The translations under genes were made by a program, and so were the position numbers. From Aphanocapsa sp. GSE-SYN-MK-11-07L (GTDB taxonomy: Bacteria > Cyanobacteriota > Cyanobacteriia > Thermosynechococcales > Thermosynechococcaceae): a DNA stretch of 52,132 bases. The notes under the pieces are model-generated. The model was not told where the DNA came from and made no database searches. It saw nothing but the letters and a program-made list of their open reading frames with translations. Below are positions 3-9,728 of the stretch, one piece after another. Location of the stretch: contig JAHHGS010000090.1 in the NCBI GenBank assembly GCA_019359715.1, forward strand, positions 1 to 52,132. The letters run 5' to 3'. Numbering within the stretch: the first letter of the stretch is position 1; each line of letters begins with the position of its first letter.

Positions 3-548
3 GTTCATCCGAGAGCGCCTGGATTTAACCCCCCATTTCCTGTCGATTTTCTCCCCTGCCAGGGGTTGCTTTTAAGAGGGTGCCGAAGTTCTGACTCAAG
101 GTGCCGAAGTTCTGTCTTTCAGCAAACAAATTCCGCAACGACGCAACCACAGCCAGAACTTTTTATTGTGGATGATTCTACGCTGCTGATTAAGCAGTTT
201 CAGAACTTAGTCACTCGCTGGGGATATCAAGTCAAATTCTCAAGTGATGCCTTAAACGCAGTGCAATCTCTCTTAGCAGCAGAACCAGCGGTGATTTTCC
301 TAGATATCAACATGCCTGGTGCATCGGGATTTGAGTTGATCAAGCAAATTCGCCGCCAAAATCAGTTGGCGACAATTCCCGTCGTCTTGCTAACGGCCGA
401 AAGAAGTGTTTCTAATCAATGGCGGGCCCAGTGGGCAAGCTGCAAGTTTCTGGCCAAGCCGCGTACCCCGGAAGAAGTTCCTACATTCCGCGCCGAACTG
501 CAGGCTCTGCTGCAAGAGCTTGTGCCAGCCAGCGGCAACTTTGCTTAG
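3..548 (+). CDS. PatA/PixG-like response regulator, C-terminal receiver part (partial)
   Basis: The C-terminal half is a complete CheY-like receiver. It has the acidic pair in IVDD, the phospho-acceptor Asp in FLDINMPG, Thr in VLLT and Lys in FLAKP. As the first gene of a CheY-CheW-MCP-MCP-CheA operon it corresponds to PatA/PixG/HmpA, which normally carry a DUF4388 region before the receiver. The reading frame is open back to the window edge. The only start codons before the receiver are a weak TTG at 66, so the 5' end probably lies upstream. The linker (residues encoded before about 150) is not convincingly protein-like and contains a 21-bp-period repeat. A frameshift or a different junction cannot be excluded. 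Confidence 0.8.
   Translation, partial: VHPRAPGFNPPFPVDFLPCQGLLLRGCRSSDSRCRSSVFQQTNSATTQPQPELFIVDDSTLLIKQFQNLVTRWGYQVKFSSDALNAVQSLLAAEPAVIFLDINMPGASGFELIKQIRRQNQLATIPVVLLTAERSVSNQWRAQWASCKFLAKPRTPEEVPTFRAELQALLQELVPASGNFA
79..114 (+). repeat. Direct repeat, two 15-bp copies at 21-bp period
   Basis: GGTGCCGAAGTTCTG occurs at 79-93 and again at 100-114, separated by ACTCAA. The 21-bp period keeps the reading frame. The repeat lies in the linker just before the receiver domain. Confidence 0.8.
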
Positions 549-590: not shown

Positions 591-947
591 ATGCGTTTTC
601 TAGTTGTAGATGATAGTTCTGTCGATCGCCATTTGATGGCTTCTCTGTTGGAAGAGTTAGGGCACCAAGTCGAAGCTTGTCCAACCACTGAAGGCGCATT
701 GGACAAAATCTCAACTGGCAACTACGAGGCGGTCTTTCTAGACATTGTGATGCCAGAGCAGGATGGCTACAAGTTTCTGCGGGAATTGCGCTCCAACCAA
801 AAAACAGCCAAACAGCACGTCATCTTCTGCTCTAGCAAGAAGACTCCGATTGAGGTTGATTACGGCATTAAGCGAGCGGGAGCCAATGACTATTTGGTTA
901 AGCCTGTGACTCGCGAAACTCTAACCCAAGTTCTAGAAAAAGTGTAA
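591..947 (+). CDS. CheY-like single-domain response regulator (PixH/PilH type)
   Basis: A 118-residue stand-alone receiver with the full active site: D7/D8 for Mg2+, D51 as phospho-acceptor in FLDIVMPEQDG, S81, and K104 in LVKP. There is no output domain, so it should act by binding a partner such as the motility machinery or by draining phosphate from the hybrid CheA. The ATG at 591 is preceded by AGGAGA at a normal distance. It lies 42 bp after the PatA-like gene and 5 bp before cheW, so the genes are very likely cotranscribed. The order matches pixG-pixH-pixI of the Synechocystis phototaxis locus. The exact role here is inferred. Confidence 0.93.
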   Translation: MRFLVVDDSSVDRHLMASLLEELGHQVEACPTTEGALDKISTGNYEAVFLDIVMPEQDGYKFLRELRSNQKTAKQHVIFCSSKKTPIEVDYGIKRAGANDYLVKPVTRETLTQVLEKV

Positions 948-952
948 TTGCT

Positions 953-1426
953 ATGGTTTCTGACTCGTCCGTTATGATTCCAGAACCTCAAATCCAGCCG
1001 TCAATGGCTGAAATTCAGCCCGATCGGGGGGTGCGCTATATCCTCACGCAAGTCGGAGAGCAGAAGTTAGCCTTCCCGCCAGCCTGGGTGAATGAGGTGA
1101 TGCAGTTTGAACAAGTTCGGATCTTACAGCTACCGTTTTACAGCCCGACAATCTTGGGGGTTGTGCACCATCAGGGAGAGGTTGTGCCCTTAGTCTCTGC
1201 CCAAGCTGCTATATTCGCTGGGCAAACACAGTATATGCCAGAAACGATAACAGCAGTTCGTTTGAGCCAGTCCATTGGAGAATTGGCAGGAACTGGGCTA
1301 GTGGTTGACCGAGTGCTGGGCAGCGTTTCAGCAGAACAGTTATCGGCGACAGGAACTCGACTGATCCAGTTGCAAGATATTTCCAGTCAGCTTTGGCAGC
1401 CCCAGCGCTGGAGTAGTCAAAGCTAA
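953..1426 (+). CDS. CheW-like coupling protein (PixI/PilI type)
   Basis: A 157-residue protein whose residues from about 27 onward fit the CheW fold. LTQVGEQKLAFPPAWVNEV starts the first barrel, and the segment PTILGVVHHQGEVVPLV resembles the usual RGxVxPV strand. It couples the two receptors downstream to the CheA hybrid kinase at the inner membrane. The first 25 residues are a flexible, Pro/Gln-rich extension. The gene starts 5 bp after the CheY-like gene. A 109-bp gap follows before the first receptor, with no strong terminator in it. Confidence 0.92.
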   Translation: MVSDSSVMIPEPQIQPSMAEIQPDRGVRYILTQVGEQKLAFPPAWVNEVMQFEQVRILQLPFYSPTILGVVHHQGEVVPLVSAQAAIFAGQTQYMPETITAVRLSQSIGELAGTGLVVDRVLGSVSAEQLSATGTRLIQLQDISSQLWQPQRWSSQS

Positions 1427-1535: not shown

Positions 1536-3986
1536 ATGACTTCCACTCCATCTCATTCGCAACCTAATCCAGGTATTTCCGTCACTAATCCGCCTCGCCA
1601 AAAATTTCGCCTCAACTCAATTGGCACCAAGCTGTTTGTGGCGGTGATGGCAGGTGCTTTAGCGGGACTGGGGGGAATTTCTTTCCTGTTCTATCAAACC
1701 CTGGCCCAACAGGCGGAGCGGCAGGTACAAGACGCCCTCAAAACAGAAGTGAACGGGATTGAAAGCCAAATTGCACCTGTATCGCAAACAGCTCAAAACA
1801 TTAGCGTCGCGATTGATTCGCTGAAAGCTGCCAAAGTCACCGATATTGAAGCCTACAAATCGACTGTGCTGGGCTTCTATCACCAGCGCCCCAAACTGGC
1901 GATGGGCACTTACTTTCTGCAAGCCCCTAATGCCATCATCGCCAGTCGGCAGTGGTTTGGGCCTTACTTTTACACCGACCAAAAGTCACCCGATCAGGTG
2001 GGGGTAGCCCTACCAGCTCCCCACCAAGGGGTAATCTACTCCGACTTGTATGTGGATGATAAGTATCCGACTCGTGAATACTACACGCTCCCGGTCAAGG
2101 CAGAGCGCGCCGTGTGGACGGAGCCTTACATCTGGTATGGGATTACCATGACTTCGTTTGTCCGCCCCAACTATGACAGTCAGAATAAACTAACCGCTGT
2201 CACAGGTGTGGATGTCAACGTCTCCTCGTTGAGCAAGAATATTCGCGGCTCCGTGATTAACAATGCAGGCTACTTTACGCTTGTGAGTGCTAAAGGCACT
2301 TTGATGGCCTATCCGCCCGACCCCAGTAAAGCGGCGAAGGTGGAGAGCTATCAGAAAGTGCCCCAACTGAAAGCGATTTGGTCAAAAGTCCAGTCGGGTC
2401 AGTCGGGGCTAATTACGGTTGATGGAAATTTGCTCGCTTATCGTCGAGTGCCCAGCACCAACTGGCTGATGTTGGCGGTGGTGCCGCAGTCAGTGGTGAT
2501 GCTGCCGGTGTTGGGGATTACGCTAGCTGGCACGTTAGTAGCAGGAGCGATTTTGGCGATTGTTGTTGCTTTAGCAGCCCGACAAATTAACCGGCGGTTA
2601 CAACCGATTTTGGCGGAGTGCGATAAGCTCGCTGCCACCGATGCCCAAACCCAGGGCAAATTGCGACAAGAAGATGAAATTGGGCAACTTTCCCTCTCAT
2701 TCTTTAACCTGCTGGACACGTTATCCGCTAACCAAAAGCAAATTCAGGCAGAAGCAGAAGCCCGGTTGGCAGAAACCCAGGAGCGGTTGCGATTGGCAAC
2801 GGAAGCCCAAAAAGAGAGCGAAGCCCTGCAAGTTGAAGTGGGTCACATTCTGGATGTGGTGTCAGCGGTCGAAGACGGCGACTTGACAGTGGAAGCGGAG
2901 GTCAGCGATCGCGCCACCGGGCTAGTCGCAGACACGCTCAACCGGCTGATTGAACAACTCGGTCAAACCCTAACTCAGGTCTTTGCTGCCGCCCAACAGG
3001 TTTCCGAGGGTTCGGCCAATCTGGAAGAACTGGCGAAAATTGTCGCCGCTAACGCTGAAGAACAGGCCCAGGAAGTGGCTCAAGTTCTGGAGCGCACAGA
3101 GCAAGTTAAAGCATCGGCGGTCAGTTCTTTGACCCAAGTTCATAACTCTAACCAAGCCCTACTGAATGTCCGCTCAGTGGTCGAAGCAGGGCAAAGCTCG
3201 ATTGACAGCATGAACCAGGGAATTGGGGTGCTTCAGCAAGGAACCGACCGGATTGTCCAGCGGATGAAAACCCTGGGTGAGTTTGTTGGTCTGGCCGATC
3301 AGTTTGTGCAAGAGCAAAACCAGATTGCTTCTTTGACCCAAGTTCTAGCCCTGAATGCCACCTTGGTTGCAGCCAGAGCGGCTGAGCAGCGCGACCCGCG
3401 CCAGTTTTTGGTGGTGGCACGGGAATTCGAGGCGATCGCGGCTCAGGTGAGTGACCTAGCGCAGCAAACCAACGACGGTCTGAACGGTCTTCAGCAGCGG
3501 ACGACTCAGATTCACTCGGTCGTGTCTGCGATTGATACCGAAGTTCAGGGGTTGGGCAGTTTGGTCAACAGCTTTACAGAGGGAGTGGATCAGTCCAACC
3601 AGGTATTTAGCAGCGTCCAGACGACAACCAGCGATGTGGCCAAGGCGGGGCAGGCGGTTGCTCAGTCCAACCAAAACATTGTCAAATCTGCTCAGGCAAC
3701 TGCCCAGGCAATGCGAGGCATTGCTGATTTGGCAGCCCGAACGGCTCAACTGACTCAAACCACCCAGTCTCAGTCTGAGCAAATGGAAGCCCTATCCAAA
3801 CAGTTGCTAAACAGCATCCAGTTCTTCCGCTTACCTGGCACTGTGCCAACCGTGTCCCAGAGTTCAGAAGCTGCGGCTTGGATCAACCTGGCAAGCGTCG
3901 ATGCCACCACTCTGGATGTTGATGCTGCTCCCGATATTGACGCTCCAGAAGTGACTGTCATTCCGCCCGTCTTGTCTAAGTCGTAG
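1536..3986 (+). CDS. Methyl-accepting chemotaxis protein 1 with periplasmic dCache sensor
   Basis: An 816-residue receptor. It has a cytoplasmic N-tail, TM1 at about 33-53, a periplasmic double-Cache sensor at about 54-315, TM2 at about 322-348, a HAMP domain, a coiled linker, a second HAMP-like module (VEDGDLTVEAEVSD) and a long methyl-accepting helical hairpin. The hairpin tip reads TQVLALNATLVAAR, the diverged form seen in cyanobacterial PilJ/HmpD receptors. No GAF or bilin-binding domain is present, so unlike Synechocystis PixJ1 it is not an evident photoreceptor. dCache domains usually bind small molecules such as amino acids or polyamines. Its sensor is nearly identical to that of the next gene. 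Confidence 0.95.
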   Translation: MTSTPSHSQPNPGISVTNPPRQKFRLNSIGTKLFVAVMAGALAGLGGISFLFYQTLAQQAERQVQDALKTEVNGIESQIAPVSQTAQNISVAIDSLKAAKVTDIEAYKSTVLGFYHQRPKLAMGTYFLQAPNAIIASRQWFGPYFYTDQKSPDQVGVALPAPHQGVIYSDLYVDDKYPTREYYTLPVKAERAVWTEPYIWYGITMTSFVRPNYDSQNKLTAVTGVDVNVSSLSKNIRGSVINNAGYFTLVSAKGTLMAYPPDPSKAAKVESYQKVPQLKAIWSKVQSGQSGLITVDGNLLAYRRVPSTNWLMLAVVPQSVVMLPVLGITLAGTLVAGAILAIVVALAARQINRRLQPILAECDKLAATDAQTQGKLRQEDEIGQLSLSFFNLLDTLSANQKQIQAEAEARLAETQERLRLATEAQKESEALQVEVGHILDVVSAVEDGDLTVEAEVSDRATGLVADTLNRLIEQLGQTLTQVFAAAQQVSEGSANLEELAKIVAANAEEQAQEVAQVLERTEQVKASAVSSLTQVHNSNQALLNVRSVVEAGQSSIDSMNQGIGVLQQGTDRIVQRMKTLGEFVGLADQFVQEQNQIASLTQVLALNATLVAARAAEQRDPRQFLVVAREFEAIAAQVSDLAQQTNDGLNGLQQRTTQIHSVVSAIDTEVQGLGSLVNSFTEGVDQSNQVFSSVQTTTSDVAKAGQAVAQSNQNIVKSAQATAQAMRGIADLAARTAQLTQTTQSQSEQMEALSKQLLNSIQFFRLPGTVPTVSQSSEAAAWINLASVDATTLDVDAAPDIDAPEVTVIPPVLSKS
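1610..2960 (+). repeat. Long direct repeat, copy A (receptor sensor region)
   Basis: From CGCCTCAACTCAATTGGC to the end of the second HAMP-like module, this segment repeats at 4196-5526. The first roughly 190 bp are almost identical at the nucleotide level. Similarity drops within the coiled linker (about 2715-2830), recovers in the HAMP-like module, and is low afterwards. Confidence 0.85.
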
Positions 3987-4087
3987 TAAACAGCGATCGC
4001 AGGTTTTATCAGATCAGCCTGCGATTGCCCATTCGCACTCTTCACGCCCTTCTTTGCTTGTCATACTTTCAGGAATTGCTGACTCCC

Positions 4088-6493
4088 ATGACCTCTGCGC
4101 CATCCCAACCTCAATCGGCCCTTGCTGATGCCTTGCTCACTTCCGCCGCAACTAAGACGCCAAAACCAACCGCTGCCAAGCCTGGCCTCGCTCCCCGCCT
4201 CAACTCAATTGGCACCAAGCTATTTCTGGCGGTGATGGCAGGTGCTTTAGCGGGACTGGGGGGAATTTCTTTCCTGTTCTATCAAACCCTGGCCCAACAG
4301 GCGGAGCGGCAGGTACAAGACGCCCTCAAAACAGAAGTGAACGGGATTGAAAGCCAAATTGCACCTGTATCGCAAACAGCTCAAAACATTAGCGTCGCGA
4401 TCGATTCGCTGAAAGCTGCCAAAGTCACTGATATTGAAGCCTACAAATCGACTGTACTCGGCTTCTATCACCAGCGCCCCAAGTTAGCGATGGGCACTTA
4501 CTTTTTGCAAGCCCCTAATGCCATCATCGCCAGTCGGCAGTGGTTTGGCCCTTACTTTTACACCGACCAAAAATCCCCTGACCAAGTGGGAGTCGCCTTG
4601 CCTCCTCCCAATCAGGGAGTGATCTACTCCGATTTGTACGCGGATGACAAATATCCGACCCGTGAATACTACACGCTGCCGGTTGAGGCGGAGCGGGCTG
4701 TTTGGACGGAGCCTTACATCTGGTATGGGATTACCATGACTTCGTTTGTCCGCCCCAACTATGACAGCCAAAATAAACTAACTGCCGTCACGGGTGTGGA
4801 TGTCAACGTCTCCTCGCTGAGCAAGAATATTCGCGGCTCCGTGATTAACAATGCGGGCTACTTTGGGCTGGTAAGCGCTAAAGGTGCCTTGATGGCCTAT
4901 CCACCCGACCCCAGCAAAGCAGCCAAGGTAGAGAGCTATCAGAAAGTGCCCCAACTGAAAGCGGTCTGGTCTAAACTTCAATCCGGTCAGTCTGGACTGA
5001 TTTTTGCGGATGGTAATCTACTGGCCTATCGACGGGTGCCCAGCACCAACTGGCTGATGTTGGCGGTGGTGCCGCAGTCGGTGGTAACGCTGCCGGTGTT
5101 AGGGATTACGCTGGCTGGTACGTTAGCGGCAGGAGCGATCCTGGCGATCGTGGTCGCCTTAGTGGCTCGACAAATTAACCGTCGCTTACAGCCAATTTTG
5201 GCAGAGTGCGACAAGCTGGCTGCCACCGATGCCCAGACCCAGGGCAAGCTGCAACGAGAAGATGAAATTGGGCAACTTTCTGTTTCTTTCTTTAATCTGC
5301 TTGATCAGCTCACGGTAAAAGAAGAAAAAATTCGCCAAGAGTCAGAACAGCGCTTACAGCTCGCCGCCCAAGCTCAAGCAGAAAACGAAGTCCTCCAGGC
5401 TGATGTGGGTCACATTCTGGATGTGGTGTCGGCGGTGGAAGAGGGCGACTTGACAGTGGAAGCGGAGGTCAGCGATCGCGCCACCGGTCTGGTCGCAGAC
5501 ACGCTCAACCGGCTGATTGAAGAACTCTCCAGAATTATGTCTACCGTGATTGGCACTGCTCAGCAAGTGGCGGGTAGCGCCGATGACCTAGAGCAGCAAG
5601 CCTCGACCGTGGCGCAGCAAGTCCAGCGACAGACTCAGTCTGTGGCCGAAGTGCAGCACTTAATGAGCAATGTCAACGACCTGTCTCAAGACACGGCTGA
5701 GCAGACAGTGATTGCCAATACGGCGGTACAACAGGCCCAAGTTGCGGTTGCTCAGGGTCGAGAAGGCTTAGGACTAATGACCCACGGGATCACCGACTTG
5801 CAGGACGGAGCTGGCCAAATCGTCAGACGGGTGCAAACTCTGACCGACTTCGTTGACCTAGCGGCCCAATTTTCTAAAGACCAAAAGCGGGTGGCGGCCC
5901 TGACCCGCGTGCTAGCGCTCAACGCTTCGATGATTGCGGCTCGTGCTTCTGGACAGCAAGACCCAGAACAGTTTGCCAGCGTTGCCAAGGAGTTCGCCAC
6001 GATCGCCGGCCAGGTGAATGACCTGGCTGTCCAGACCAACCGAGGTTTGCTGCTGTTGCAGCAGCGGACTGACCAAATTCAAACTGAGGTATCTGGGCTA
6101 AACCAAGATGCGGAGGGGATTGATACCTTGGTCGAGCAATTTACCGCCAGCGTTGATCAGTCTCGGCAAGCCTTTGAAAATATTAAAACCGCCACCGAAC
6201 AGGTGGCTCAGGTCGGACAACAGGTGAGCCAATCCAGCCAAGCGATCGCCGCTGCCGCTCAAACCACCCTGGTTTCAATTGAAGACATTGCGGTTGTTAC
6301 CCGCACAACCGAGGGACAATCTCAGTTTACCCAAGAGCAGGCTAATCTGATGGGTCAACTGGTGCAGAGGTTGCTGAATCGAGTTGAATTCTTCCAGTTG
6401 CCGGCAGAGCCAGCTCCTCAACCCGCCGCTCAGGAAGCTGTTGACGTTCAAGAACAGGCGGCCCTTGCCAACGGACATGGTGTGCTGCTGTAA
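4088..6493 (+). CDS. Methyl-accepting chemotaxis protein 2 with near-identical dCache sensor
   Basis: A second receptor of about 801 residues when started at the ATG at 4088. An upstream in-frame TTG at 4025 would add an unlikely 21 residues. The layout matches receptor 1: TM1, double Cache, TM2, HAMP, linker, second HAMP-like module and methyl-accepting hairpin with tip TRVLALNASMIAAR. The sensor differs from receptor 1 by only scattered substitutions, whereas the signalling hairpin is strongly diverged. The linker between the two HAMP-like modules is exactly 7 residues shorter. Tandem receptors at this operon position are also known in the pix locus (pixJ1, pixJ2). The pair probably arose by duplication, with the sensor half homogenised later. 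Confidence 0.95.
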   Translation: MTSAPSQPQSALADALLTSAATKTPKPTAAKPGLAPRLNSIGTKLFLAVMAGALAGLGGISFLFYQTLAQQAERQVQDALKTEVNGIESQIAPVSQTAQNISVAIDSLKAAKVTDIEAYKSTVLGFYHQRPKLAMGTYFLQAPNAIIASRQWFGPYFYTDQKSPDQVGVALPPPNQGVIYSDLYADDKYPTREYYTLPVEAERAVWTEPYIWYGITMTSFVRPNYDSQNKLTAVTGVDVNVSSLSKNIRGSVINNAGYFGLVSAKGALMAYPPDPSKAAKVESYQKVPQLKAVWSKLQSGQSGLIFADGNLLAYRRVPSTNWLMLAVVPQSVVTLPVLGITLAGTLAAGAILAIVVALVARQINRRLQPILAECDKLAATDAQTQGKLQREDEIGQLSVSFFNLLDQLTVKEEKIRQESEQRLQLAAQAQAENEVLQADVGHILDVVSAVEEGDLTVEAEVSDRATGLVADTLNRLIEELSRIMSTVIGTAQQVAGSADDLEQQASTVAQQVQRQTQSVAEVQHLMSNVNDLSQDTAEQTVIANTAVQQAQVAVAQGREGLGLMTHGITDLQDGAGQIVRRVQTLTDFVDLAAQFSKDQKRVAALTRVLALNASMIAARASGQQDPEQFASVAKEFATIAGQVNDLAVQTNRGLLLLQQRTDQIQTEVSGLNQDAEGIDTLVEQFTASVDQSRQAFENIKTATEQVAQVGQQVSQSSQAIAAAAQTTLVSIEDIAVVTRTTEGQSQFTQEQANLMGQLVQRLLNRVEFFQLPAEPAPQPAAQEAVDVQEQAALANGHGVLL
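4196..5526 (+). repeat. Long direct repeat, copy B (receptor sensor region)
   Basis: Partner of the segment at 1610-2960. It encodes TM1, dCache, TM2, HAMP and the second HAMP-like module of receptor 2. Confidence 0.85.
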
Positions 6494-6554: not shown

Positions 6555-9500
6555 ATGCCTGAAGTTAACACTCATCCCAGCGCTACCTCTCAGGAAGCCC
6601 TCAGTCCAGCAGAACTGGCTGAACTTGAACTGCAACAAGAACTGCGCGGCATGTTCAACGTTGATACTCAAGCGTATCTGCAAACCTACATCAGCTTGGC
6701 TCAGCAGTTGCAACCCCAGTCATGGACAGCCGACATTCAAGAACTGTACCGCTGTATTCACACGATCAAAGGTGGGGCAGTCACGGTCGGAGCAGAGGCA
6801 ATTTTGCACGTTTCTGCTGTTCTAGAAGATTTGCTGTCTGATTTGCGCTATCTCCAAATCGCACCCCCCTTGGCAGATCGGCAACTGTCTCAAATCCTGT
6901 TGGAAGCGGGAGAACTACTGACGGGCAGCTTGCAAATTGCAGCCGTTGGGCAGGCTGCGGTAGAGAGCGTTCAACCGACAGTGGAGCGAATTCTCGCTCT
7001 CCGGACAGTTGTGCAGCAGGCTTATTTGCCAGAGTGGGATGAGCATCAGCAGCTTTTCCAAGAGTTCGCTGAAAATGGCTTTGACCTGGTTGTTCTAGAT
7101 CTGACAATGGCCCTGGAGGCATTACCCACCGCTGGGATTGTCTCGCCAGTCGCCCTCCAAGCGGCCAAGCAAACCCTCCAGCAACTGATCCAAATTGGCC
7201 AAGACTTAGGATTTGAGGCAGGCTGGCTGCAATTGCTCGATCGCGCTCAAGTGTTACTCGATCGCCCAGACAATCAGTTTTGGTGCGACAACTGGCCCAA
7301 CTATTTGCAACTTCTGAAAGACTCTGCCCGCAAGGGTGGGCAGCTTCCAGAAGCTAGTCAATCGGCTGGTCTGGAGGCTCTATTTGCTGAGCCAGAAAGC
7401 GCGATCGGACTAAACCTATCTCATCCAACAGCAGTAGGGGAGCCTGAAACAACATCTCCACTTGTACCAGAGCTTGAGCTTTTTGCGGACACTGACAATG
7501 AACTCTCGTTGGAACTGGATACTTTTGCGGACTTAACCAATGGCAATGAGTTGTCCCTGGAACTTGATACCTTTCCAGACCTGAGCGCTGTTAGTGCACC
7601 GGAACTCGACGCCCTAGTAGACTTGGATGCTGCCAGCGAGTCGTGGCTAGAACTAGATGCGTTTGCAGACTTGAGTGATATCAACGAATCGTCCCTGGAA
7701 CTTGATACCTTTGCCGATTCGAGTCCTAACAGCGAACCTTCGTTAGAGCTGGATGCGTTTGCAGACTTGAGCGCTGAGAGTAAATCTTCACTCGAAGAAG
7801 ATGTCTTAGATTGGACGGCTGAAGCTCCTGAAGCTGCTGTTGCTAGGATGCCAGTCGCTTCAACCTCAGCCGCTAGCGCCCAGATTCCTGTACCTCTAGA
7901 GCGCTTAGATCGCTCCGCTCAAGACTTGGTGGAAACTCTCCTGTCGGCTCGCGCCGTCCAGGGCTTCTACAGCACATTGCAAGCTCAACTATTGCAGATG
8001 GTGACATTGGCCCAAGATAGCGCCAACTACATTACTCGCCTGCGCCAAATTCAAGATGAATATGCCCTGTTGGACAATTTACAGGCTGACGGCACTAATG
8101 CTGGGCCTACCCTAGAACGCTATCGCCAAGGCTATACCATTATCAACCGTCTTCTAGAGTCGAGCTTGCGGCTTTCAGAGCTGGGGGCGGAAGTTTCCAC
8201 CAGTAACCATCAAACGGCAGTCAGCATTCAGCAGCTCGATCGCAATATTCTCAACCTGCAAAAAACAGTTGAAGAAAGTCGGCTGGTTCCGTTTAAGAGC
8301 CTCAGTTTCCGAGCCAGAGGGATTCTGCGAGATCTGACCAACCGCTACGGCAAACCCGCCCAGTTGGTGGTGCAGGGCGAGCAGTTAGAACTTGATGCTG
8401 GCACCGTGCAAGCCCTAGAGCCTGCTCTACTCCACCTGATTCGGAATGCCTACGACCACGGGCTAGAACCGCCAGCCCAGCGGTTAGCCCTGGGTAAACC
8501 GGAGCTGGGAACCCTCACCCTCACCCTGCGGCGGCGCGGCAACACCTACGCCCTTGATTTACAAGACGATGGTCAAGGCATTGATCCAGAAGTGATTCGC
8601 CAAAGCGCGATCAGTAAGGGGTTGCCGAACTGGCAAGTCGATACGCCAGCGGCACTGCTAGCAGTGCTCTGCCAACCCGGCTTCAGTTCGCGAGATCTTG
8701 TCAGCGACATCTCAGGACGCGGGGTTGGCATGGATGTAGTAGCCAACCAAGTCAACGCCTTGGGGGGACGACTCAGCCTAGAGACAGCTTTGGGGCAAGG
8801 CACCACCTTTCATCTAGAGATTCCGGTGCCGCACTTGCTAGTCCGCTGCGTCTTAGTCCAGTCGGGCGATCGCACCCTAGCGATTCCAGCCGATGAAGTG
8901 GTGACTACCACACTGCTCGATAGTTTGTCGGCCACACCGGCCGATCCAAAGCTCAGCTACTCCTGGGTGATTCAAGACGCAGACCAATCTTTACCAGGGC
9001 TGAACTTACTGGAGTATTGGTATCCAGGCCAAGGCGGGCGATCGCTCCCTGAGACAGCCGTTGGTTTACGGGTGCGGGCCGCAGCAGCGAAGGGCACTCA
9101 GGATGCTTGGCTGCTAGCCGATGAATTGCTAGAGCAGGTTGATCTGTTAATTAATCCAATTCCGAATCCGCTCGTGCTTCCGGCTGGATTAATGGGCGTC
9201 AGCCTGCTTACAAATGGCAAACTGGTGCCAGTTTTAGACCCAACCAAGCTGGCAGAACATCTGTTGAGCCATCCGATCAGCAGCGCTGAGGCGACAGGTC
9301 TTGATTCCGTCAGCACCTCAGCGGCCAGCCCAGCTCCGGCAGCTCCCGTGGCTGAGGCAAAAGCGTCTCTGACCTCAACCATTCTGGTTGTCGATGATGC
9401 GGCACTGGTCAGACGTCGGATTGAAGCCAGCTTGACGGCCTATGGCTACACTGTCCAAACCTGTCGGGACGGTCTAGAGGCCTGGAATTGGCTGCAAGCT

Positions 9501-9728
9501 CATCCTACTCCAGCCTTAATGATTAGCGACATTGAAATGCCGGGGATGGACGGCTTTACCTTAATCAACCGCTGTCGGCAAGCGGAAATGACGATGCCTG
9601 TGCTGGTGATTTCTTCCCGCTTATCGGAAGAGTGGGGAACCGAAGCTCGCCGCTTAGGAGCGACTGACTATCTGACCAAAGGATTTACCACGCCTGAACT
9701 GCTGCAAAAGGTAAGCAGCTTTCTCTAG
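6555..9728 (+). CDS. CheA hybrid histidine kinase with C-terminal receiver (PixL/PilL/HmpE type)
   Basis: A 1057-residue kinase closing the operon. An N-terminal Hpt domain carries H69 in CIHTIKGGA. A helical region (about 150-260) is followed by an acidic repeat linker (about 312-420), a dimerisation segment, and an ATPase with the N box HLIRNAYDHG near 630, DDGQGID near 670 and GRGVGMDVV near 720. A CheW-like domain starts near 755. A receiver occupies about 940-1057, with VDD near 945 and the phospho-acceptor D992 in SDIEMPGMDG. It should phosphorylate itself and then the CheY-like, PatA-like and its own receiver domains under control of the two receptors. Its stop codon lies only 3 bp from the convergent TPR gene. 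Confidence 0.96.
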   Translation: MPEVNTHPSATSQEALSPAELAELELQQELRGMFNVDTQAYLQTYISLAQQLQPQSWTADIQELYRCIHTIKGGAVTVGAEAILHVSAVLEDLLSDLRYLQIAPPLADRQLSQILLEAGELLTGSLQIAAVGQAAVESVQPTVERILALRTVVQQAYLPEWDEHQQLFQEFAENGFDLVVLDLTMALEALPTAGIVSPVALQAAKQTLQQLIQIGQDLGFEAGWLQLLDRAQVLLDRPDNQFWCDNWPNYLQLLKDSARKGGQLPEASQSAGLEALFAEPESAIGLNLSHPTAVGEPETTSPLVPELELFADTDNELSLELDTFADLTNGNELSLELDTFPDLSAVSAPELDALVDLDAASESWLELDAFADLSDINESSLELDTFADSSPNSEPSLELDAFADLSAESKSSLEEDVLDWTAEAPEAAVARMPVASTSAASAQIPVPLERLDRSAQDLVETLLSARAVQGFYSTLQAQLLQMVTLAQDSANYITRLRQIQDEYALLDNLQADGTNAGPTLERYRQGYTIINRLLESSLRLSELGAEVSTSNHQTAVSIQQLDRNILNLQKTVEESRLVPFKSLSFRARGILRDLTNRYGKPAQLVVQGEQLELDAGTVQALEPALLHLIRNAYDHGLEPPAQRLALGKPELGTLTLTLRRRGNTYALDLQDDGQGIDPEVIRQSAISKGLPNWQVDTPAALLAVLCQPGFSSRDLVSDISGRGVGMDVVANQVNALGGRLSLETALGQGTTFHLEIPVPHLLVRCVLVQSGDRTLAIPADEVVTTTLLDSLSATPADPKLSYSWVIQDADQSLPGLNLLEYWYPGQGGRSLPETAVGLRVRAAAAKGTQDAWLLADELLEQVDLLINPIPNPLVLPAGLMGVSLLTNGKLVPVLDPTKLAEHLLSHPISSAEATGLDSVSTSAASPAPAAPVAEAKASLTSTILVVDDAALVRRRIEASLTAYGYTVQTCRDGLEAWNWLQAHPTPALMISDIEMPGMDGFTLINRCRQAEMTMPVLVISSRLSEEWGTEARRLGATDYLTKGFTTPELLQKVSSFL
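7486..7812 (+). repeat. Degenerate acidic repeat array inside the CheA linker
   Basis: At least six imperfect units built on LELDxFADL, each 16-22 residues long and separated by short Ser/Asn/Glu spacers. Units read LELDTFADL, LELDTFPDL, LELDAFADL (twice) and LELDTFADS, with a weaker PELDALVDL. The array is strongly acidic and sits between the Hpt part and the dimerisation domain. Confidence 0.85.

Follow-up and report, generated by a model that had tools for sequence, protein, structure and literature searches.

Two adjacent chemoreceptor genes near the start of a cyanobacterial contig encode proteins whose sensors are almost the same and whose signalling halves are very different. The locus thus raises two questions: how the halves of one receptor pair came to have different histories, and whether one stimulus may be read out in two ways. 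The first-pass annotation had offered both ideas, i.e. a single ligand input with two signalling outputs, or homogenisation of the sensors by gene conversion.

Organization of the locus and architecture of the receptors

The window, by which we refer to the whole stretch of 52,132 nt that was analysed, is contig C90 from base 1 and belongs to a 5.1-Mb draft genome of 159 contigs. Both receptor genes, R1 and R2, are intact and lie within a gene order of the type RR-CheY-CheW-MCP(-MCP)-CheA-REC, the first gene being cut by the contig end (Table 1). Judged from its predicted products, RR-CheY-CheW-R1-R2-CheA is an operon of the cyanobacterial Tax/Pix-type chemosensory kind, and it holds one CheW and one CheA. 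A genome search yielded no separate CheR or CheB gene; both domains occur fused as CheB-CheR in a single open frame of 1423 aa. Between its Hpt and kinase parts, the CheA hybrid contains a tandem repeat with a degenerate 48-nt (16-residue) unit (LELDAFADLS..., 7647-7771 of the window). The nearest relatives of this CheA are found in the genomes G106 and G047 and not in most members of its own family, and a family clade was weakly rejected in a quick tree (p-AU 0.016). As the CheA groups with other families than its own, the operon may have been transferred, which leaves the conflict between sensors and hairpins described below unaffected. The same genome encodes a second tandem receptor pair on contig C139 (L029:9236-14247), which has canonical hairpin tips, is 45% identical overall and is not homogenised.

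Table 1. Features of the chemosensory locus, with positions in the window
Feature	Positions	Strand	Basis or remark
Response-regulator gene, REC part only	3..548	+	truncated by contig start; orthologues ~390-440 aa
CheY-like single-domain response regulator	591..947	+	neighbour kept in nearly all related loci
CheW adaptor	953..1426	+	Pfam PF01584
Receptor 1 (R1), 816 aa	1536..3986	+	ORF, Pfam; R1 orthologues across the class
R1 homogenised sensor block TM1-dCache-TM2-HAMP1	1608..2717	+	1608-1907 97% identical to R2
R1 connector HAMP1-HAMP2	2718..2828	+	7 additional residues near 2760-2780; two direct copies of CGGTTG at 21-nt spacing
R1 HAMP2-like module	2829..2960	+	nucleotide identity to R2 0.85-1.00; putative separate conversion patch
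R1 kinase-control hairpin, R1-type	2961..3845	+	hairpin tree; abrupt identity drop at residue 475/476
Receptor 2 (R2), 822 aa from TTG	4025..6493	+	ORF, Pfam; probable start ATG 4088
R2 homogenised sensor block	4196..5305	+	repeat of R1 sensor block
R2 connector, 7 residues shorter	5306..5395	+	alignment to R1
R2 HAMP2-like module	5396..5527	+	sequence match to R1 module
R2 kinase-control hairpin, R2-type	5528..6406	+	100/100 clade in tree
CheA-REC hybrid kinase (Hpt, HATPase, CheW, REC), same operon	6555..9728	+	Pfam

For R2, translation probably starts at ATG 4088 rather than at TTG 4025, since the sequence MTSAPSQ... encoded there matches MTSTPSH... of R1. In both sensors PF22673 scored above the Pfam cut-off and dCache_1 matches remained below it; both receptors are accordingly of the dCache type, with a double PDC periplasmic sensor. 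HAMP1 of R2 scores just below the Pfam cut-off. Matches to MCPsignal (PF00015; cut-off 34.6 bits) are weak or borderline, at 27.4 bits for R1 alone and 34.5 bits for R2, and the R1 score is 39.9 with the neighbours in frame. The tips of both receptors align to solved MCP tips. An AlphaFold prediction on R1 and R2 alone, with a mean pLDDT of 39.7, suggested that the connector is helical and that the chain turns near residues 616-620.

Near-identical sensors are joined to diverged hairpins

From TM1 through the linker, R1 and R2 are about 91% identical at the residue level, compared to about 41% in the hairpin. Onward from TM1, some 130 aligned residues contain a single change. A direct-repeat search returned a sensor repeat of 300 nt (1608-1907 and 4196-4495, 97% identical) and a HAMP2 repeat of 179 nt (2782-2960 and 5349-5527, 85% identical), which bears out the earlier description of a near-identical TM1-dCache-TM2-HAMP block and a second HAMP-like module in both proteins. 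In codon-aligned windows of 20 residues, identity is 0.93-1.00 over the first ~140 residues from TM1 and 0.75-1.00 from there through HAMP1; beyond HAMP1 it drops to low values across the connector, returns to high ones in the HAMP2-like module and ranges mostly from 0.2 to 0.75 along the hairpin. HAMP2 thus forms a high-identity patch (0.85-1.00 at the nucleotide level in 27-nt steps) that is set off from the sensor by the divergent connector. Where HAMP2 ends, at R1 residue 475/476, nucleotide identity falls from 0.96 to 0.37 between adjoining steps of nine codons. The hairpins that follow align gap-free over ~300 residues at ~41% identity and are therefore, as had been noted, matched in length and strongly diverged.

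Sensor trees follow the genome, hairpin trees the receptor

Under gene conversion, sensors had been predicted to group by genome of origin and hairpins by receptor type, and this is the pattern obtained. Two further cyanobacterial genomes, G047 and G009, have twin dCache receptors at the corresponding locus. In the sensor tree, R1 and R2 pair by genome in the window, G047 and G009, each pair with 100/100 support. Forcing the R1 sensors together was rejected for all three genomes (p-AU 1e-60) and for pairs of them (1e-10 and 4e-8). In the hairpin tree, the R2 hairpins form one clade (100/100), and joining the R1 and R2 hairpins of the window was rejected (p-AU 3.5e-4). Identities follow the same division: sensors are 91% identical within the window, 92% within G047 and 77% within G009, versus 47-50%, 47-50% and 47-49% between genomes, respectively. 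For hairpins of the window and G047 the values are 65% for R1-R1 and 57% for R2-R2, versus 41% for R1-R2 inside the window; overall, hairpins are 40-56% identical within genomes and 51-65% between same receptors. A search for hairpin residues diagnostic of R1 or R2 yielded no more than a single site with 85% fixation in each group. A tree built from full-length receptors of this kind blends two histories.

Patchy synonymous identity points to repeated conversion

The longest identical runs between R1 and R2 measure 175 nt in the window and 395 and 304 nt in G047. Among codons for the same residue, synonymous changes affect 26% in the sensor and 56% in the hairpin of the window, and 16% and 57%, respectively, in G047. 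These changes are clustered beyond shuffles (p=1.5e-4 in the window, 5e-5 in G047), identity at third positions fluctuates along the sensor, and tracts of synonymous identity with sharp ends are present in both genomes. No identical run of at least 60 nt was found between R1 and R2 of G009, where homogenisation is, as far as these sequences tell, old. Because identical nucleotide runs and patchy synonymous identity occur together, the data point to repeated conversion rather than to one copying event plus selection. Homogenisation by gene conversion, as the first-pass annotation had considered, is thus strongly supported by the predicted conflict between sensor and hairpin trees.

Could one recent copying of the sensor cassette from one receptor to the other, by partial duplication or domain swap and without later conversion, account for the same pattern? 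Either scaffold can carry the sensor, as related dCache sensors are borne by R2 in several genomes and by R1 in others, so the second scaffold must have acquired its sensor through at least one copying event. However, such an event followed by uniform divergence would leave the patchiness unexplained: identical tracts lie beside half-saturated ones, at the p values given above, and HAMP2 is a separate patch of high identity beyond a divergent linker. These features argue against a single copying as the sole event, and we consider it improbable. Still less can be said for a history that involves no recombination at all, with purifying selection holding the sensors alike while the hairpins drift. 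Amino-acid identity does exceed synonymous identity in parts of the sensor, so that constraint acts too, but synonymous sites are conserved in tracts as well, sensors evolve faster between genomes than hairpins of the same receptor (~48% versus 57-65% identity for the window and G047), and the two trees conflict. We rejected this explanation, which is very unlikely given identical tracts and sensors that pair by genome. A collapse of paralogue reads in the repeated sensor deserves mention for a draft of 159 contigs, in which an identical tract of 175 nt is hard for short reads; yet ~100 synonymous differences separate the copies within the sensor region, neither frame is interrupted, and the same pattern is seen in two other genomes, making an assembly artefact equally hard to credit.

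Based on these results, we propose that R1 and R2 are ancient tandem partners in an operon of the cyanobacterial Tax/Pix type. Their signalling hairpins would have separated earlier than the cyanobacterial families sampled and have been held apart ever since. The two receptors share one dCache sensor in this lineage, and their sensor-HAMP halves would have been overwritten repeatedly by conversion between the adjacent genes, with high-identity tracts that, in the sequence, end where the hairpin starts. We assign this evolutionary reading a probability of roughly 0.8.

The seven-residue difference in the connector is private to this genome

Counted from the DEIG of HAMP1 to HAMP2, the connector has 52 residues in R1 and 45 in R2, the difference being a single gap of 7 residues at R1 residues 409-415. 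That the difference is real follows from the direct-repeat search, in which the spacing of the repeated tracts drops by 21 nt, from 2588 to 2567, between the two repeat blocks. The claim that the linker is exactly 7 residues shorter in R2 therefore holds, and coiled-coil phase is preserved within this genome. The emphasis on the heptad did not extend further, as orthologous pairs have equal or near-equal connectors. By pattern count, 51 residues were obtained for both G047 receptors, the second receptor of G117 and R1 of G009; R2 of G009 has 49, so that this pair differs by 2. Hand counts, from printed sequences, of several other dCache-type orthologues also gave 51 residues, for R2 of G159, G189, G088 and G201 and for R1 of G194, G223 and G259; 51 is the length in most dCache-type orthologues, in R1 as in R2. 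With 51/51 in G047, 51/49 in G009 and equal lengths in most other relatives, the heptad was rejected as a conserved feature, and the 7-residue difference is, within the sequences compared, private to this genome. The simplest connector history would be a shared gain of one residue and a later private loss of seven in R2. R1 carries two copies of CGGTTG 21 nt apart at the indel site, an arrangement from which slippage could have deleted 21 nt. The difference would then be a phase-preserving indel, probably a slippage deletion in R2, that left the signalling geometry tolerable.

Distribution of the receptor pair and of its sensor

A family search identified receptors of this pair in 12 other genomes, among which only G009 has dCache on both. 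In the remaining members both receptors carry a shorter sensor without a Pfam name; at L015-L027 the tandem receptors share this unnamed sensor (LDEVLTMSARMAASTGD..W motif) in place of dCache, and in these loci both receptors seem to have changed sensor type jointly. With the exception of G013, the shorter sensors of these other family members group mostly by receptor, so that conversion is not universal and homogenisation is no general rule of the locus.

Across the class, a query with the HAMP2-hairpin part of R1 matched in 57 of 291 genomes, mostly twice per genome, and 33 regions around these matches were fetched. The order regulator-CheY-CheW-R1-R2-CheA is kept in most fetched loci of family and class, and in many class-wide loci the R1 and R2 sensors are unrelated or only distantly related. 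Both receptors of G047 bear the same dCache sensor as those of the window, and three receptors of G106 share another dCache-type sensor. In all, only three dCache-type twin pairs were found (window, G047 and G009), one of them in a draft with a frameshifted R2. Searches for more such pairs in the phylum and near G047 and G106 contributed no further pair to the analysis; the phylum search was not exhaustive, as scoring was confined to the best candidates of each genome and G047 is absent from its results. A plasmid search gave distant receptors only, and a contig scan with R1 gave only unrelated ones.

Several of these loci depart from the common form. In G009, a frameshift splits R2 into two overlapping ORFs (L014:3932-6318). 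R1 orthologues of genus g33 reach ~1800-2090 aa (L054:5841-11630, L059, L060, L062 and L066), with a tail of ~1100 residues after the hairpin that has no convincing Pfam match. Of the three tandem receptors in G106 (L037:6929-14776), the last two are ~90% identical in HAMP-linker-HAMP2, ~55% in the sensors and ~30% in the hairpins, and their HAMP-linker-HAMP2 forms another conversion-like patch. Relatives of the same dCache sensor are found on histidine kinases of G013 (L021:6748-9438), ~25 kb from its receptor pair, and of G009 (L028:1002-3455); the sensor therefore also occurs on kinase scaffolds.

One input and two outputs as a functional reading

Near-identical sensors, anciently separate hairpins and a single CheW and CheA in the operon fit a system with one input and two outputs. 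Both receptors would most likely sense the same periplasmic ligand and feed into one CheW/CheA array, while the two hairpins would couple to the kinase differently, e.g. in gain, sign or set-point. To this best functional reading we give about even odds. The candidate pocket residues R180, Y182, Y183, Y198 and D226 are identical in the twins, their equivalence to PctA positions being judged by eye; transfer of an amino-acid or amine ligand from sequence motifs was judged unsafe.

It is possible, although less likely, that homogenisation has no signalling meaning and is a by-product of adjacent repeats, with one receptor redundant or decaying. Adjacent direct repeats convert readily, and broken or atypical second receptors exist elsewhere (the frameshift in G009; R2 of 486 aa in G223 and G259). 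Very divergent hairpins could mean that one receptor is decaying, though both ORFs are intact here; against a mere by-product stand the conservation of both hairpin types across many genera and the fact that converted tracts end at the hairpin in each case. Rather more doubtful is the proposal that R1 and R2 assemble within a shared array as heterodimers or mixed trimers and that selection for this reason keeps the sensor halves interchangeable; two hairpins that differ in their kinase-control settings would then read a single stimulus. Such an arrangement could be a two-gain or push-pull device that replaces CheR/CheB methylation adaptation, with conversion as its maintenance. As a natural pair with one sensor and two outputs, R1 and R2 would allow differences in kinase control to be studied at constant input.

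Comparison with known chemosensory systems

Literature searches returned no precedent for gene conversion or homogenisation of chemoreceptor sensors, which is not proof of absence. The known kind to which the locus belongs is that of tandem chemoreceptors, and the twin pair is a variant of it. The Synechocystis loci tax1 (pixGHIJL), tax2 and tax3 have the same components, namely CheY-like regulators, CheW, one or more MCP-type receptors and a CheA-REC hybrid (PMC5812497). The receptors of tax2 and tax3 are devoid of a photosensory (cyanobacteriochrome) domain, as are R1 and R2, and their stimuli are uncharacterised (PMC5812497). This likeness is one of component kind, and we found no description of sensor homogenisation for tax1-tax3.

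The closest solved sensor domains by sequence are the dCache structures 7k5n and 3lib, with E-values of only ~1e-12 to 1e-9, and their ligands cannot be transferred. Canonical MCP hairpins (3g67/4jpb and the C139 pair of the same genome) align with R1 and R2 at the LALNA..AAR tip and the hairpin signature. Compared to these tips, both receptors carry an insertion (AEQRDPRQF and SGQQDPEQF against GEAGKGF) that amounts to two residues in the PDB alignment, its placement being uncertain as MAFFT prefers a longer gap.

In the usual chemoreceptor families the sensor is diversified and the signalling tip conserved; here this is reversed, and the reversal recurs in three cyanobacterial lineages. Tlp2, Tlp3 and Tlp4 of Campylobacter jejuni have identical signalling domains and sensors that are ~30% identical (PMC9769880). 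Like R1 and R2 they are paralogous dCache chemoreceptors of which one half is kept identical while the other diverges, but they are the mirror image of the present pair, in which it is the sensors that stay alike and the signalling halves that differ.
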